Part shown: positions 51,057-59,830 of the stretch, one piece after another
Numbering within the stretch: position 1 is the stretch's first letter
Layout of the letters: the number at the start of each line of letters is the position of its first letter
Source of the DNA: Paenibacillus sp. FSL H8-0332
GTDB lineage: Bacteria; Bacillota; Bacilli; Paenibacillales; Paenibacillaceae
NCBI RefSeq assembly: GCF_037963835.1
Contig: NZ_CP150145.1
Span: 4,526,001 to 4,590,000, forward strand
DNA length: 64,000 bases
Direction: 5' to 3'
Translations under genes and position numbers: made by a program
Notes under the pieces: model-generated
Seen by the model: the letters and a program-made list of their open reading frames with translations, nothing else
The model's database searches: none
Told to the model about the DNA's origin: nothing

Positions 51057-51575
51057 CTAGTTCAGATAACGTTCATGAAGAACCCGCAGATGATGCAACT
51101 CATGTCCAATGATCAGAGCAATCTGCGCTCTAACCGACATCGCATTGCCATTGGCGCTGCCCGTGCGGATATAATCATCATCCGCCAGACTGTCTACCAG
51201 CGCCAAGGTGGACTCGCGGACGATCCGGTAGTGCGCAATCATCGCCTGCAGCGTGAAGCGGTCGAACGCCCCTGCAGCCGCATAATCATTCTCCTCATAG
51301 CCCGGCAGCGGCGCCTGCTCCCCCCTCGCAAAACACAGCAAGCGGTAAGACATAATGCGGTCATTATCTATCAGATGCCCCAGCATTTCCTTGATACTCC
51401 ACTTCCCGGGGGCATAGCGGTAGGCCCCTTGCTCCTCCGTCAGCCCGCCGAGCAGAGCCAGCACCTGCTGAGTCTGCTCTCTTAGAATGACACTCAGTTC
51501 TCCTTCAGGCGGCACCAGTGTAATATATCTGGACTGAAAATCGGTATACTCTCCTTGCGCAGGACGCTGATTCAT
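51057..51575 (-). CDS. DinB-like metal-dependent hydrolase/transferase (YfiT type)
   Basis: 172 residues. Four-helix DinB fold with three metal-binding His: LGHLIDNDRI (His), a mid-protein helix IAHYRIVRE, and IIGHELHHLRVLHERY. Some relatives are thiol transferases or bacillithiol S-transferases; specificity unknown. The start is the ATG at 51575, behind GGAGAGGGG. It lies opposite the agr-like promoter region. Confidence 0.88.
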   Translation of the reverse strand: MNQRPAQGEYTDFQSRYITLVPPEGELSVILREQTQQVLALLGGLTEEQGAYRYAPGKWSIKEMLGHLIDNDRIMSYRLLCFARGEQAPLPGYEENDYAAAGAFDRFTLQAMIAHYRIVRESTLALVDSLADDDYIRTGSANGNAMSVRAQIALIIGHELHHLRVLHERYLN

Positions 51576-51636
51576 GGTAAAAACCCCTCTCCAATCCAAT
51601 TTTTAAGAAATATTTGCCGGATTGTGTCAAAACCTG

Positions 51637-51665
51637 TTGTTGTATCTTAGCCTATTATGTATAAT
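51637..51665 (+). promoter_or_regulatory. Sigma-A type promoter of the agr-like operon
   Basis: TTGTTG (51637-51642) and TATAAT (51660-51665) with 17-bp spacing, about 48 bp upstream of the first membrane-protein start. Consensus quality of the -10 is perfect. Confidence 0.75.
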
Positions 51666-51712
51666 ATCACCAGGATTACAGATTAGTTAACCTATTTCCC
51701 GGGAGTGTACGC

Positions 51713-52378
51713 ATGCTGGATTTTGTGCTTTATATGGTATTTTCTATCTTAGAAACATCTGCAATGTTTTATTTGGCTTTCAAGGTTTTTAAGATCGATA
51801 TTTATCTAATTGAAATAGTATTTGCTGGTTCCCTTATGGCATTTGTATCTTTCGTTCTCCGTCATGATTATGAAATGGTATTGACTGATGTATTCTTCCA
51901 ATATCTGTTGACCTTCTGCTTTTTATGGCTTTTGTTTAAAATTCATGTCTTTTACGCTGCCATAATGACAGGATTGGCTTATTTAGCATATATGCTTGTT
52001 CAATCCACAAGTTATTTCATATTAAAATTATCAGGTGTATACTTTATAGTTATCCCTTTTATACCCGATAATGTATATCTCCTTCAACTGATTTCTGCAG
52101 GACTTACAATAATAATAGCTTATAGTGTCGGCAAACGGCGAAAAGGCTTTGACTTCGTTCCAGACAAGCAAAACTATAAGGTAAACATAGATTTCCGTGA
52201 AATCAAGCTTTTTATCCTTAGTGCACCTGCATTATTAATAGTCATAGTTATGTTAATCTTAGCCCAAAGATACTCCCAGTACTTCTTCCTGATCCCTATG
52301 ATATATGCCGTTCTGCTCTATGCTTATCTATATCTTTCATACAAAAAGGATCGAACGCACAATGAATTCAATAGCTAA
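51713..52378 (+). CDS. AgrC-sensor-like membrane protein without kinase domain
   Basis: 221 residues, six or seven hydrophobic helices (FVLYMVFSILETSAMFYLAF, IVFAGSLMAFVSFVL, FFQYLLTFCFLWLLF, ISAGLTIIIAYSV, LFILSAPALLIVIVMLILA, FLIPMIYAVLLYAYLYL) and a charged tail KKDRTHNEFNS. In layout it resembles the membrane sensor part of AgrC-type receptors, but no DHp or ATPase domain follows and none is encoded nearby. A ribosome site GGGAG precedes the ATG. The 3' end overlaps agrB by 17 nt. Whether it binds the peptide or restrains the LytTR protein is unknown. Confidence 0.8.
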   Translation: MLDFVLYMVFSILETSAMFYLAFKVFKIDIYLIEIVFAGSLMAFVSFVLRHDYEMVLTDVFFQYLLTFCFLWLLFKIHVFYAAIMTGLAYLAYMLVQSTSYFILKLSGVYFIVIPFIPDNVYLLQLISAGLTIIIAYSVGKRRKGFDFVPDKQNYKVNIDFREIKLFILSAPALLIVIVMLILAQRYSQYFFLIPMIYAVLLYAYLYLSYKKDRTHNEFNS

Positions 52379-52886
52379 TAGAATTGCCGTCAGCATTAAA
52401 AATGCAAATCCTGAGGAGACCCATTCCGTTGAGGTTATGGAATACTCATTGGGCATTATATTGAATACATTATTAATTGTAGTAAGTTCAGCCATCATTG
52501 GTCTTTTTCTAGGTCGTTTTGCAGAATGTATGACCTTTCTATTATGCTTCTGCATCCTACGCCTCAGTTCTGGCGGTTTTCATCTAAAAACAGCCTTGGC
52601 ATGTAATATTGTCACAACTTTATTGAGTACTACTTTGCCGTCATTCGTTACCCTGTCGAATTCAGCACTGTGGATTGCTAATGTATTTAGTTTAATCATA
52701 ATCATTACTTTCGCTCCGAACCCGGACAAGAATGCGAGAATCTCCACTTCGATATACCCTTTATTGAAGTTGGTTTCTATAGTCATAGTGTTAACTAATT
52801 TTTTTCTGCAATCAACTGTCGTCGGGTTGGGGTTCCTGGTTCAATCCCTAACAGTCATCCCTTGGACAAGGAGGAGAACACAGTGA
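52362..52886 (+). CDS. agrB: AgrB-like peptide-processing cysteine protease
   Basis: 174 residues. Integral membrane endopeptidase that trims and cyclises AgrD. Catalytic His and Cys are conserved: RLSSGGFHLKTALAC with His74 and Cys81, seven residues apart as in S. aureus. The start is the ATG at 52362, behind AAAGGAT, inside the upstream gene. Its stop TGA overlaps the agrD GTG by 4 nt. Five to six membrane helices. Confidence 0.93.
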   Translation: MNSIANRIAVSIKNANPEETHSVEVMEYSLGIILNTLLIVVSSAIIGLFLGRFAECMTFLLCFCILRLSSGGFHLKTALACNIVTTLLSTTLPSFVTLSNSALWIANVFSLIIIITFAPNPDKNARISTSIYPLLKLVSIVIVLTNFFLQSTVVGLGFLVQSLTVIPWTRRRTQ

Positions 52887-53002
52887 AAAAAGCAATCGCA
52901 AAGCAAGCTTCAGCCGTTCTTGCCGGTTCTGCACGTTTCTTTATATCTATAATGAAGCCAGCTTTCCACAGCCCGGAAGTACCAAAAGAATTACGTAAGT
53001 AA
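52883..53002 (+). CDS. agrD: AgrD-like autoinducer precursor (39 aa, no cysteine)
   Basis: GTG start within the agrB stop (GTGA), behind AAGGAGGAGA. Sequence: MKKAIAKQASAVLAGSARFF then ISIMKPAFHSPEVPKELRK. An amphipathic N-terminal leader is followed by the C-terminal recognition tail EVPKEL, identical to that of S. aureus AgrD. No Cys is present, so a thiolactone is impossible; Ser22 is the only plausible ring nucleophile (lactone) if the cut falls near Phe28-His29. Mature peptide boundaries are inferred only. Confidence 0.9.
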   Translation: MKKAIAKQASAVLAGSARFFISIMKPAFHSPEVPKELRK

Positions 53003-53023
53003 TTACACAAGGATGGGGAGTAC

Positions 53024-53359
53024 ATGCGTGTCTTACTAAACGACGGCTCTTCCCGCAGTATCCGGGAGGAGGAGATATTGTATTTCTCTAACCATAAGAA
53101 TACGATATTCGTCCATACGAAAGAAGGCGAATTTGTTCTCCCTACCACTCTTTCCGATTTGTATGCAGCTTACGGAGGCCTGGGCTTTGAACGTCTTGAC
53201 CGCAGCAATGTAGTCAACATTGGCAATATTGACGGTTATGATCCGGAACGGAAGATTGTTCTGTTCAATCAAGGGGAACAATTTGCTACTGTATCAGAAT
53301 CCAATGAAACACGTATCCGCAGATTTCTGGCTTCGCAGAAGAAAGAATCACAGTCATAG
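53024..53359 (+). CDS. Stand-alone LytTR DNA-binding protein
   Basis: 111 residues, a complete LytTR domain without receiver domain. Family landmarks: EEEILYFSNHKNTIFVHTKE near the start, GFERLDRSNVVNIGNIDGYD and the C-terminal DNA-binding strand ETRIRRFL. It is 21 bp after agrD and the last gene of the operon. LytTR regulators of Agr systems normally have an N-terminal receiver; its absence, like the lack of a kinase, implies another input. A terminator follows. Confidence 0.9.
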   Translation: MRVLLNDGSSRSIREEEILYFSNHKNTIFVHTKEGEFVLPTTLSDLYAAYGGLGFERLDRSNVVNIGNIDGYDPERKIVLFNQGEQFATVSESNETRIRRFLASQKKESQS

Positions 53360-53370
53360 AATGTAAAGAG

Positions 53371-53408
53371 AGCAGCGATCCTTTTATAAGAGGATCGCTG
53401 CTTTTTTA
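53371..53408 (+). terminator. Terminator of the agr-like operon
   Basis: Perfect 11-bp hairpin AGCAGCGATCC / GGATCGCTGCT followed by TTTTTTAG. Confidence 0.93.
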
Positions 53409-53588
53409 GTTGTTATACAGCTTCAAATTCAATCATTATCACATAATATCCATCTTATGTAAAGAGGAATTCAGAGGGCGAATGACAGCAGACGGATTTT
53501 CTTCCATATGGTACCATTTACATAGAGATATTTTATTTCAATCTTAATTATCTGTCCCACCTACTCTCAACTATGATGGAGGAATACA

Positions 53589-53762
53589 ATGGAAACTTAC
53601 TTTCATCCTTCTCCGCGCCCCTCATCACTTGAGCTATTGTCTGACGAACAATTAATGAACATCTACGAATTGGCGCTGGAAGCCAAGGCTTCACCGGATT
53701 TTATCCAGATTATCAGGAATGTTCTCACCACGCGGAATCTTTCAGGTACCCAACATCATTAG
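53589..53762 (+). CDS. sda: Sporulation histidine kinase inhibitor Sda (57 aa)
   Basis: 57 residues from an ATG 6 nt behind GGAGGA. The Sda motif is clear: LELLSDEQLMNIYELALEAK then ASPDFIQIIRNVLTTRNL. Sda blocks KinA/KinB and couples sporulation to replication status. The N-terminal 12 residues (ETYFHPSPRPSS) are longer than in B. subtilis Sda. Monocistronic, with a convergent terminator downstream. Confidence 0.88.
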   Translation: METYFHPSPRPSSLELLSDEQLMNIYELALEAKASPDFIQIIRNVLTTRNLSGTQHH

Positions 53763-53804
53763 AATGCGAAGCTCTGATCCATAAGATATACCTGCACAGA
53801 TGCC

Positions 53805-53844
53805 AAAAAACCATCCTCCACATTGTGCGGGGATGGTTTTTTGG
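53805..53844. terminator. Bidirectional terminator after sda
   Basis: AAAAAACCATCC / GGATGGTTTTTT with A-run and T-run on both sides, between convergent sda and the 53863 gene. Confidence 0.9.
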
Positions 53845-53862
53845 TGAGCAACGGACTTCTAT

Positions 53863-54171
53863 CTACTCGATAATTTCGGTCTTGAATACGTTCTCCAGCT
53901 TACCACCAAGCCGCTTCTTCAGAGGAACCTTGATATCGCGTCCCAGCTCTTTGAAGAAGGTCTCCGCATCACATTTGACGTTCTGAGCCATGGCAATGAC
54001 TGTTCCATCAGCAACGATATTCTGATTCACTTCAAGCGGCACATCTACTTCGATATCGTATTTTTTGGTAAGTGTCTTGATGTATCTTGCAAAAATCTCC
54101 AGCAGCTCTTCGTTATTGAAATTCTCGATGGCCGCTTTCCCTTTGCTGGTGAACTTCATATTGATTCTCAT
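53863..54171 (-). CDS. Conserved hypothetical cytoplasmic protein
   Basis: 102 residues, alternating beta/alpha pattern with KFTSKGKAAIENFNNEELLE and a Lys/Arg-rich LKKRLGGKLE tail. No motif recognised. A GGGGATA lies upstream of its ATG. It follows the XRE gene at 54291 by about 120 bp and may be cotranscribed. Confidence 0.7.
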   Translation of the reverse strand: MRINMKFTSKGKAAIENFNNEELLEIFARYIKTLTKKYDIEVDVPLEVNQNIVADGTVIAMAQNVKCDAETFFKELGRDIKVPLKKRLGGKLENVFKTEIIE

Positions 54172-58707: not shown

Positions 58708-59830
58708 TGCAGTATATACAGGTGAATTACGCTTACATAGAACTAAAAAGATTGATATTAATCGTAATATTGTTGAAAAAGTTCCGTTGGAAGAGCAAAT
58801 AGTATTACAAGATGAATCCATAAGAATTGTTAGTGATGAGATATTTCAACTTACTCAGGTTGAAAAAGCAAAGCGTATAAAACAGTTTGGTGACTTTAAG
58901 TATAAAAATGTAATCGTAGAAGATGATGATGGAAATACTATACAATCTTCTCAAAAGACTTTAATTAGGGGAAACAGCAGGCATTCCAACAAACATCTAT
59001 TTTCCAACTTACTGAAATGTGGAAATTGCGGTGGCAGCCTTAGAAGAAGAGTAATAAATAACAAACTGAAGAACAATAGAATAAACACATATACTTATTG
59101 GTTTTGTAGAAATAGCGAGCTTCATGGAAAAACAAAATGCTATTTTAGAAATGTCCAACACGAAAAAAATCTTATCGAGTTTGTAAAGAATGAGATAATA
59201 AATTATCGTAATTCACCTAGGAAGAGAAAATATTATCTCGATACTATTTTAAGAACAAAGTATAATACTAAGGATATTAAAAAGAAGAAGTTAAAACTCC
59301 AAGAAGAAATAGAAGAAATAAATATAGATAAACATGGACTAATAAAATCAGTTGGGAGAGAATTAATAACTGAACATGAATTTTTAATTGAAAAAAAGAA
59401 ATTAGATGCTCAATTATTCAAAGCAGAATCTAAGCTTAAACAACTTATATATATTGATAATGAAATTAAGGCTTTACAAGCAAACTTTAATAGGTTTACT
59501 AAATTCTTAGAACAAGTTGATGTTGAGAATCTTACAAATAGTATTCTAAGAAAAATCGTTCATAGTATCACTGTCGAAACCCATGGAGAACCTATTTTTC
59601 CTGGAGCAATTCATGACAAACACACTCTTAATATTGAATGGAATTTCCTTGATACAACTGAAAAGGAGATACTAAGTGAGAGTTTAAAAAAGTTAGGAAA
59701 ATCTAGTGGAAGTGGTAAAAGCCTTGAATTAACTGAAAATATAATTGAAGAACTTGCAAACATTGCAAGCAGAAAACCGACAGATGATGAACTTCTATGG
59801 AACTTAGAGAAATTCCACAAAACACTTTAG
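58688..59830 (+). pseudogene. Large serine recombinase, 5'-truncated
   Basis: The first visible frame is VLKNAVYTGELRLHRTKKID then INRNIVEKVPL, the start of the recombinase (PF07508-type) domain that follows the catalytic domain. A zinc ribbon follows: LLKCGNCGGSLRRR...YWFCRN...GKTKCYF, then a coiled coil and Lys/Glu-rich C-terminus (348 residues from a TTG at 58787 without a ribosome site). The N-terminal resolvase domain with the catalytic Ser is absent; upstream in frame there is a stop. It is therefore probably inactive. Such recombinases integrate and excise skin-like and phage elements. Confidence 0.85.

Follow-up and report, generated by a model that had tools for sequence, protein, structure and literature searches.

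How can an Agr-type operon that contains neither a histidine kinase nor a receiver domain convert a peptide signal into a change of transcription? The question is raised by a four-gene operon in the window, the whole stretch of 64,000 nucleotides (nt) that we analysed, which corresponds to C1:4526001-4590000 of a 7.54-Mb single-contig Paenibacillus genome. The operon encodes a membrane protein, the peptidase AgrB, an AgrD-like precursor and a LytTR DNA-binding protein, and its relatives are found in Paenibacillus species. We consider it moderately probable that the operon represents Agr-descended quorum sensing without phosphotransfer, in which a sensor domain acts directly on the LytTR protein. 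This reading is supported by (i) the recurrence of the four genes in 108 of 163 loci, a second copy in the same genome and phage cassettes without an adjoining kinase, and (ii) the homology of the membrane protein to AgrC-like sensors, eight loci in which AgrB is absent or broken, an AgrA-like LytTR protein and the His and Cys of AgrB, invariant in 118 of 118 aligned proteins. It is further supported by Cys/Ser at position 0 or Lys at position 1 in 144 of 144 distinct AgrDs.

The operon, its sensor-like protein and its regulator

The genes follow each other on the forward strand in the order membrane protein (51713..52378, 221 amino acids (aa)), AgrB (52362..52886, 174 aa), AgrD-like precursor (52883..53002, 39 aa) and LytTR protein (53024..53359, 111 aa), between a promoter at 51637-51665 and a terminator at 53366-53407. 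The membrane protein and AgrB genes overlap by 17 nt and the AgrB and AgrD genes by 4 nt, in keeping with the tight overlaps described in an earlier, sequence-only reading of this DNA; AgrD and LytTR are separated by 21 nt. AgrB (PF04647, E 1.3e-23) carries catalytic-type His and Cys residues (GGFHLKTALAC), which are the pair constant across the aligned AgrBs, near-duplicates included. The LytTR protein matches PF04397 (E 1.4e-12) and, being 111 aa in all, leaves no room for a receiver; it is thus the single-domain protein that had been claimed. The operon was also said to lack any phosphotransfer partner, and this is borne out: Pfam shows no kinase and no receiver in it, and no HATPase at the locus.

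We determined the spread of the system with a membrane-protein profile, which found relatives in 78 of 100 genomes of the genus; in 62 of the 100 they are of the same type as the window operon (system 1). In a family sample that includes the genus, 186 of 295 genomes and 16 of 19 genera gave a match, and a class sample that includes family members gave one for 38 of 398 genomes, which represent 10 of 145 genera. The window's own genome has two AgrB loci, both in operons of this kind. The second copy (L040 3096-4789 = C1:2680096-2681789; L and G numbers denote loci and genomes) repeats the four genes in identical order, with a membrane protein of 22% identity and a Ser-type AgrD, TASVFYI|NQPEVPEELLK. 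Elsewhere in this genome, a LytTR gene is broken across two frames (L044, C1:2014296-2014579).

For a census, 195 membrane-protein open reading frames (ORFs) were reduced by a 90% identity filter to 163 loci, in which the piece of a split gene (L106) and the second genes of tandem pairs are still counted; duplicates (L001-L005, L007, L051, L163-L193) and context loci (L159-L162) were left out. The membrane gene, AgrB, AgrD and a short LytTR gene occur together in 108 loci. Since these non-redundant loci share the genes and order of the window operon, the four-gene arrangement is not only present, as had been proposed, but exceeds chance. The other loci hold AgrB and AgrD with no LytTR in the flank of up to 1.6 kb (25 loci), AgrB only (3), AgrB and LytTR with no AgrD by pattern (6), an AgrD-like frame and LytTR without AgrB (5, one being the piece of L106), or LytTR only (6, three being the first of tandem membrane genes on phages or a chromosome, while L131 has AgrB upstream). 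Four more have a longer LytTR protein (L109, L111 and L112, which appear by eye to be tandem LytTR proteins, and L201, which has a true receiver), and six contain the long forms described below.

The earlier description of the first gene product as a six-helix membrane protein fits the 6–7 helices assigned to it, and it has no kinase half; the AlphaFold model, made with nine sequences, has seven helices of 20–29 residues at a mean pLDDT of 68. Searches of Pfam and NCBIfam up to E 10 gave no match, and PHROG 15604 ('membrane protein') is matched at E 1e-14. In a class-wide profile search, six matches lie in ORFs of 412–433 aa, the long forms: the profile matches the N-terminal half of AgrC-like proteins of 406–421 aa, which continue into a cytoplasmic half. 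Aligned by hhalign, five long-form sensor halves match the short form with a probability of 99.1 (E 3.7e-19, 181 columns). By this homology to the long AgrC-like proteins, as distinct from staphylococcal AgrC, the window's membrane protein is an AgrC-type sensor domain without its kinase half.

Three of the six long forms (L212, L216, L217) are followed by AgrB, an AgrD with Cys/Ser at position 0 and a receiver-LytTR regulator, that is, by the order agrCBDA. The cytoplasmic halves of the long forms can be aligned with GHKL kinases at a probability of 80 (E 1.4e-5, 133 columns). These halves look degenerate in L212-L217, like those of pseudokinases, because no Pfam HATPase was found in the five long forms scanned and the L212 row of the printed alignment lacks both the kinase His and the N-box; the remaining rows were judged by eye. 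L212-L217 are thus possible pseudokinase Agr systems, three of which adjoin an intact receiver-LytTR regulator. Relatives with degenerate kinase halves would provide a visible evolutionary path.

The LytTR protein is AgrA-like by sequence and predicted fold: its best sequence matches in the PDB are the LytTR domains of AgrA (E 0.006-0.007), and its predicted structure (pLDDT 86) matches the AgrA LytTR domain 4g4k at E 2.7e-06. A variant of about 240 aa, apparently built from two LytTR halves, occurs in L109, L111, L112, L118 and L228, and a further short LytTR protein follows it in L111, L112, L118 and L228; for L111, Pfam reports one LytTR domain and no receiver.

Sensor and regulator are also retained together where AgrB is absent or broken, at eight loci (L115, L121, L122, L128, L142, L148, L150 and L240). 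The membrane gene and LytTR are adjacent, with no AgrB or AgrD, in L142, L148 and L150, which belong to three genomes; L121 retains only the AgrD tail, L128 has AgrD without AgrB, and AgrB is broken or truncated in L115, L122 and L240. Losing the sender while keeping both sensor and regulator is what would be expected of a response module.

Phages carry the same cassette. An AgrB search led to eleven phage records, of which four were opened (Abouo, Harrison, Emery and Davies); each encodes one or more membrane proteins, AgrB, a peptide of 38-42 aa and a LytTR protein of 118-122 aa, with no kinase alongside. A fifth phage, Paisley, has AgrB and membrane-protein matches. Against Pfam, the phage LytTR proteins score 29.4, 29.1, 19.1 and 16.9 bits at a cut-off of 22.6, two above and two below, and the family profile matches them as well. 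A tblastn search of phages with the window's membrane protein gave nothing at E 1, and the phage relatives were reached through AgrB, PHROGs and the membrane protein of Harrison. Existing annotation misses the system: the membrane protein belongs to no Pfam or NCBIfam family, and the phage LytTR protein is labelled hypothetical in three phages and dipeptidyl aminopeptidase in Harrison, PHROG 15081 being named 'peptidase'. A role of the cassettes in lysogeny is thinkable, because integrase or recombinase genes and regulator genes lie close by in the opened phages. AgrB, AgrD and kinase-less membrane proteins were described in Abouo, Davies and Emery by Hargreaves et al. 2014 (PMC3901668), and phage AgrB is listed as a gene name in PMC4909266.

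In phages Emery and Davies, and likewise in genome G420, AgrB is preceded by a tandem pair of membrane (sensor) genes (L157 1604-2269 + 2337-3005; L158; L194; L220). The cassettes L120, L139, L198, L219 and L284 are preceded by a gene of about 335 aa that looks by eye like a recombinase, and may be mobile elements; L120, L198, L219 and L284 have a Ser-type AgrD, and no AgrD was found in L139.

The AgrD peptide and its ring position

Canonical AgrD closes its ring through a Cys or Ser ten residues ahead of the Pro with which the P-x-E-L tail begins; this residue is numbered 0, and cleavage follows position 4. By analogy, the window precursor, which starts with GTG at 52883 and was delimited from its ORF and by AgrD comparison, would be cleaved after Phe28 (52964-52966), upstream of the tail HSPEVPKELRK. 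Lys25 (52955-52957) then falls on position 1 and Met on position 0, where there is neither Cys nor Ser; the whole precursor is free of Cys. The profile TIGR04223 gives 15.9 bits, below its cut-off of 19, with a match that covers the P-x-E-L tail residues. On two points this corrects the sequence-only reading: the AgrD call scores below the profile's cut-off, and the ring position holds no Cys or Ser.

These same features, together with the missing kinase and receiver, could mark a decayed Agr remnant that no longer signals, and some relatives are clearly decaying (L121, L122, L115 and L240, and the split membrane gene of L106). Decay of the window operon is nevertheless very improbable in view of a system-1 membrane protein in 62 of 100 genus genomes, the occurrence of the membrane protein across 16 of the 19 genera sampled for the family, the constant AgrB His/Cys and the conserved promoter.

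We extracted AgrDs as small frames with a P-x-E-L tail at each AgrB locus, a rule that is blind to positions 0 and 1. Exactly one such frame was obtained at 165 of 179 loci and none at 14, which stand outside the following count. Among the 144 distinct sequences, 65 have Cys/Ser at position 0 without Lys at position 1, 78 have Lys-1 without Cys/Ser-0, one has both and none has neither. The sequence with both Cys-0 and Lys-1 belongs to L090 (1010-2746), whose genome has two tandem system-1 operons. The window operon and the four opened phages are of the Lys type. In Lys-type AgrDs, Lys-1 is kept in 68 of 69 (the exception is the remnant L121) while positions 0, 2, 3 and 4 vary, a constancy amid variable neighbours that resembles that of the Cys in ordinary autoinducing peptides (AIPs). 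Ser at position 6, past the expected cleavage site, is kept in 66 of 69.

In an AgrB tree (rows more than 85% identical dropped, 124 kept), the Lys type lies on one side of a branch with one change (support 70/43; 66% of bootstraps), which argues for one origin kept over long divergence and not for repeated gain. Some AgrB residues, one of them beside the active-site Cys, differ between the Lys and Cys/Ser types, a difference that a single origin could also explain. Outside the family, seven AgrB loci were viewed: L276 has Cys-0 by pattern, L267-L269 have Cys-0 by eye, three are without a readable AgrD, and no Lys-type AgrD was seen among them. An eighth outside candidate, L284, proved to be a family member of the Ser type.

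Could Lys-1 take over ring closure? A Lys side-chain amide to residue 4 comprises Nz, Ce, Cd, Cg, Cb, Ca and C' plus 3x3 atoms, 16 in all; a thiolactone comprises S, Cb, Ca and C' plus 4x3, again 16, the same ring size as the proposed lactam. The canonical thiolactone ring is 16-membered and AgrB acts through an acyl-enzyme mechanism (PMC4979651). From the equal atom count, closure as a Lys side-chain lactam may be put forward as a reasoned guess, about even with a linear peptide. If the peptide of the Lys-type clade is linear, Lys-1 would be kept for receptor recognition or for docking to AgrB, and this alternative falls just short of probable. A linear product would result if the AgrB thioester were hydrolysed, constancy is equally to be expected of a residue that serves in binding, as Ser-6, outside any ring, illustrates, and the literature searched yielded no Lys-closed AIP. 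Constancy of Lys-1 next to variable positions, the mutual exclusion of Cys/Ser-0 and Lys-1 in 143 of 144 AgrDs, the preserved ring size (16-membered thiolactone: PMC4979651) and, with the reservation made above, the type-specific AgrB residue argue for the lactam instead. Ring closure through Ser at position -2 was ruled out; the residues that occur there are S, T, A, K, R and V.

Proposed direct switching and kinases elsewhere

In the mechanism that we propose, AgrB in the membrane would use its active-site Cys to sever the AgrD tail behind Phe28, as homology to known AgrBs suggests, and a short peptide would be released outside the cell. The membrane protein, whose homology to AgrC-type sensors is observed, would sense this peptide as its presumed ligand and would directly sequester or release the receiver-less LytTR protein. 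The LytTR protein would in turn bind a conserved block above the weak -35 element, so that the operon would regulate itself. In the Lys clade, where the ring Cys/Ser at position 0 is gone, Lys-1 may close a 16-membered side-chain lactam, or the peptide would stay linear.

We searched for adjoining kinases with a home-made HATPase profile, a coarse test in which at least three rows were built from the wrong strand and which still recovers three control kinases. It gave no match next to the 189 short-form membrane genes, whose downstream flanks measured 1461 nt or more (median 2090 nt); its three matches are separate kinase genes upstream of the long forms L213-L215. A receiver profile matched, in the short-form operons, L201 and an ORF on the opposite strand in L090. 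Canonical Agr with a nearby kinase gene that was missed is ruled out at the window locus; for its relatives this holds across the stretches read, genome G096 excepted.

Several observations weigh against direct switching. The downstream flanks are short (median 2.1 kb). In one operon (L201/L262), a kinase-less sensor, AgrB and AgrD are followed by a receiver-bearing LytTR protein, and no kinase was recognised by eye in 10 kb. In G096, the locus L132 combines the membrane protein with AgrB and AgrD but has no short LytTR gene of its own; 1.4 kb past AgrB, in the same orientation, come genes for a receiver-LytTR protein and a GHKL kinase (L159, C1:4238500-4243500, a wider stretch used as a control and outside the no-kinase counts). 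The window's own genome has two pairs of a GHKL kinase and a receiver-LytTR protein, at C1:879-880 kb and 5001-5003 kb. LytTR is missing within the flank (up to 1.6 kb) at 28 of the 163 loci, and in nine of the genomes concerned, G096 among them, the LytTR proteins found elsewhere are mostly in receiver-sized frames. Among solved structures, the membrane protein has no match by sequence and none of worth by fold, the model having a pLDDT of only 68. Finally, the constancy of Lys-1 is, as judged from the AgrB tree, that of one clade with a single origin kept, and not of repeated events.

The pairs in G096 and in the window's own genome bring in an unlinked histidine kinase, for example that of either GHKL pair, as the reader of the peptide, with the small LytTR and the membrane protein as side components. 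In the genus, AgrBs outside the family do lie close to GHKL kinases (e.g. G047, G052, G030, G076, G058, G093, G029, G015), the window's own genome having no such AgrB. In C. perfringens, VirS is unlinked to the Agr locus. VirS has been reported as the receptor of an Agr-like peptide in this organism (PMC7492741). We regard such an arrangement as unlikely here: the sensor halves of the two kinases are unlike the membrane protein (hhalign probability 0.1-0.3; 0.1 with that of the L159 kinase included); at E 1e-30, one kinase has relatives in 37 of 100 genus genomes and the other in 32, numbers that become 31 and 29 among the 62 genomes with system 1, 21 of which have neither; and the cassettes of the four opened phages are without an adjoining kinase. 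The dedicated kinase elsewhere that the sequence-only reading had asked about was thus checked in part, and candidates exist, but with sensors unlike the membrane protein and with relatives of both missing from about a third of the operon genomes.

The 28 loci that combine the membrane gene and AgrB (in 25 of them also AgrD) without a LytTR gene close by, and the tandem membrane genes on some phages and a chromosome, would also fit a membrane protein that serves in export, maturation or immunity, exerts no control over LytTR and leaves the LytTR protein to answer to something else. Homology of the membrane protein to the sensor half of AgrC-like proteins and its retention near LytTR at the eight loci without intact AgrB make this explanation rather improbable. 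Direct action of the sensor on LytTR, with phosphorelay-free switching as its consequence, is in line with the short forms and the opened phages, without an adjoining kinase in the stretches read, and with the eight loci in which AgrB is absent or broken; the G096 pair is an exception.

Known systems, transcription signals and the sda neighbourhood

The window operon shares with canonical Agr (agrBDCA; Staphylococcus, Listeria) the AgrB His/Cys, a precursor with a P-x-E-L tail, an AgrC-type sensor domain, an AgrA-type LytTR domain and the organisation in one operon. It differs from it in a sensor without kinase half, a LytTR protein without receiver, a sensor gene that comes first, and an AgrD with Lys at position 1 instead of a ring Cys/Ser. 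With LytTR regulatory systems (LRS; HdrRM and BrsRM, PMC6193735) it has in common a receiver-less LytTR protein and a kinase-less membrane protein in one operon and a candidate site just 5' of the -35 element. In contrast to all LRS identified in that study, in which the regulator gene precedes the membrane gene, the membrane gene comes first here and agrB and agrD lie in between; DUF3021/DUF2154, on which the filter of PMC6193735 rests for all but one type, finds no counterpart in a protein without a Pfam match to E 10; and the window operon has a built-in AgrB/AgrD signal pair and no clear direct repeats. The likeness to LRS drawn in the sequence-only reading is fair for function, but membership as published fails on the reversed order and the domain families, and no clear direct repeat is seen. 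The word 'Paenibacillus' is absent from the main text of the LRS paper (Zou et al. 2018, PMC6193735). Since defining features of canonical Agr and of LRS were tested and are not found, the operon is a variant of Agr signalling outside both.

The agr cassettes of phages Abouo, Davies and Emery have the gene order of the window operon, and the section of PMC3901668 devoted to them makes no mention of a following LytTR protein, the missing Cys or the Lys; for phiCDHM1, unlike the window operon, it mentions a kinase associated with the cassette. The closure proposed here has a parallel in the homodetic autoinducing cyclopeptides of Listeria (PMC11297923) and clostridia, whose amide-closed ring likewise arises from an AgrB/AgrD pair. 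The Listeria peptides differ in that they form by an S-to-N acyl shift and are described as AIPs without exotail (PMC11297923), whereas the window precursor has no Cys and a Lys side chain is proposed.

Among the matches listed in the literature searched, with subscription papers and preprints mostly outside its scope, we met neither an AgrBD-LytTR operon without a kinase nor an AgrD of the Lys type, and the novelty is provisional. The loss of the ring Cys/Ser together with the Lys, the second copy, the phages, the relatives with kinase halves and the sda neighbour go beyond the sequence-only reading. Direct switching, if true, would mean that Agr signalling needs no histidine kinase and that the AgrB/AgrD signal couples to a transcription factor through the sensor domain. 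It would account for phages fitting an entire communication kit into about 1.7 kb, and it may be a simpler means by which bacteria and some phages sense each other. Closure through Lys would give autoinducing peptides one more ring chemistry and would predict a signal that resists hydrolysis. The most far-reaching formulation is a phosphorelay-free Agr class in Paenibacillaceae, a second Bacilli family and phages, in which a LytTR protein without a receiver responds to an AgrC sensor domain without a kinase, the largest clade uses a Lys macrolactam in place of the thiolactone or lactone while the ring keeps its 16 atoms, and the system is tied to Sda in Paenibacillus and may inform lysis-lysogeny on phages; taken as a whole, it is doubtful.

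Transcription of the operon would start from a sigma-A type promoter read from the sequence, with a -35 element TTGTTG (51637-51642), a 17 nt spacer and a -10 element TATAAT (51660-51665). This promoter, which the sequence-only reading had announced, is supported by its conservation, but its -35 is poor (3 of 6 consensus positions) and a simple promoter scan does not list it. Among 61 membrane genes of system 1, 51 are preceded by such a -35/-10 pattern; these upstream regions comprise 50 distinct sequences, and 48 of the 50 carry TTGTTG exactly. A conserved block with the consensus ATTTTTAAGAAAAATTTGcCGAAAAGTGTAAAATgCTG (51600..51636, + strand), common to 48 distinct system-1 promoters, lies directly 5' of the -35 element and is a candidate site for LytTR autoregulation; a direct repeat of 21-22 nt, the LytTR-site type, was sought in its consensus and none was convincing. 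The operon ends at a predicted intrinsic terminator (53366..53407, + strand). A search of Rfam over 51500-53900 gave no match at gathering scores.

The downstream neighbour is an sda-like gene (sporulation inhibitor A; 53589..53762, + strand, PF08970, E 5.4e-09). Sda inhibits sporulation kinases in B. subtilis. In 61 of 66 system-1 operons, LytTR is followed on its own strand by an sda-like gene, mostly at a distance of 80-350 nt; two lie farther away, at 752 and 840 nt, and one of the five misses had too little flank. This makes a link to sporulation a lead, drawn from synteny only. The interval between the operon terminator and sda (53408-53588) contains a conserved block with a AAATGGTACCATTT-like near-palindrome, which is kept in 59 relatives. 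A LytTR site shared by the operon and sda was considered and is not supported, as words of the promoter block occur between LytTR and sda in only 0-1 of 59. Farther downstream, at 58787-59830 of the window, lies a frame that resembles by eye the C-terminal part of a recombinase (zinc-ribbon region).

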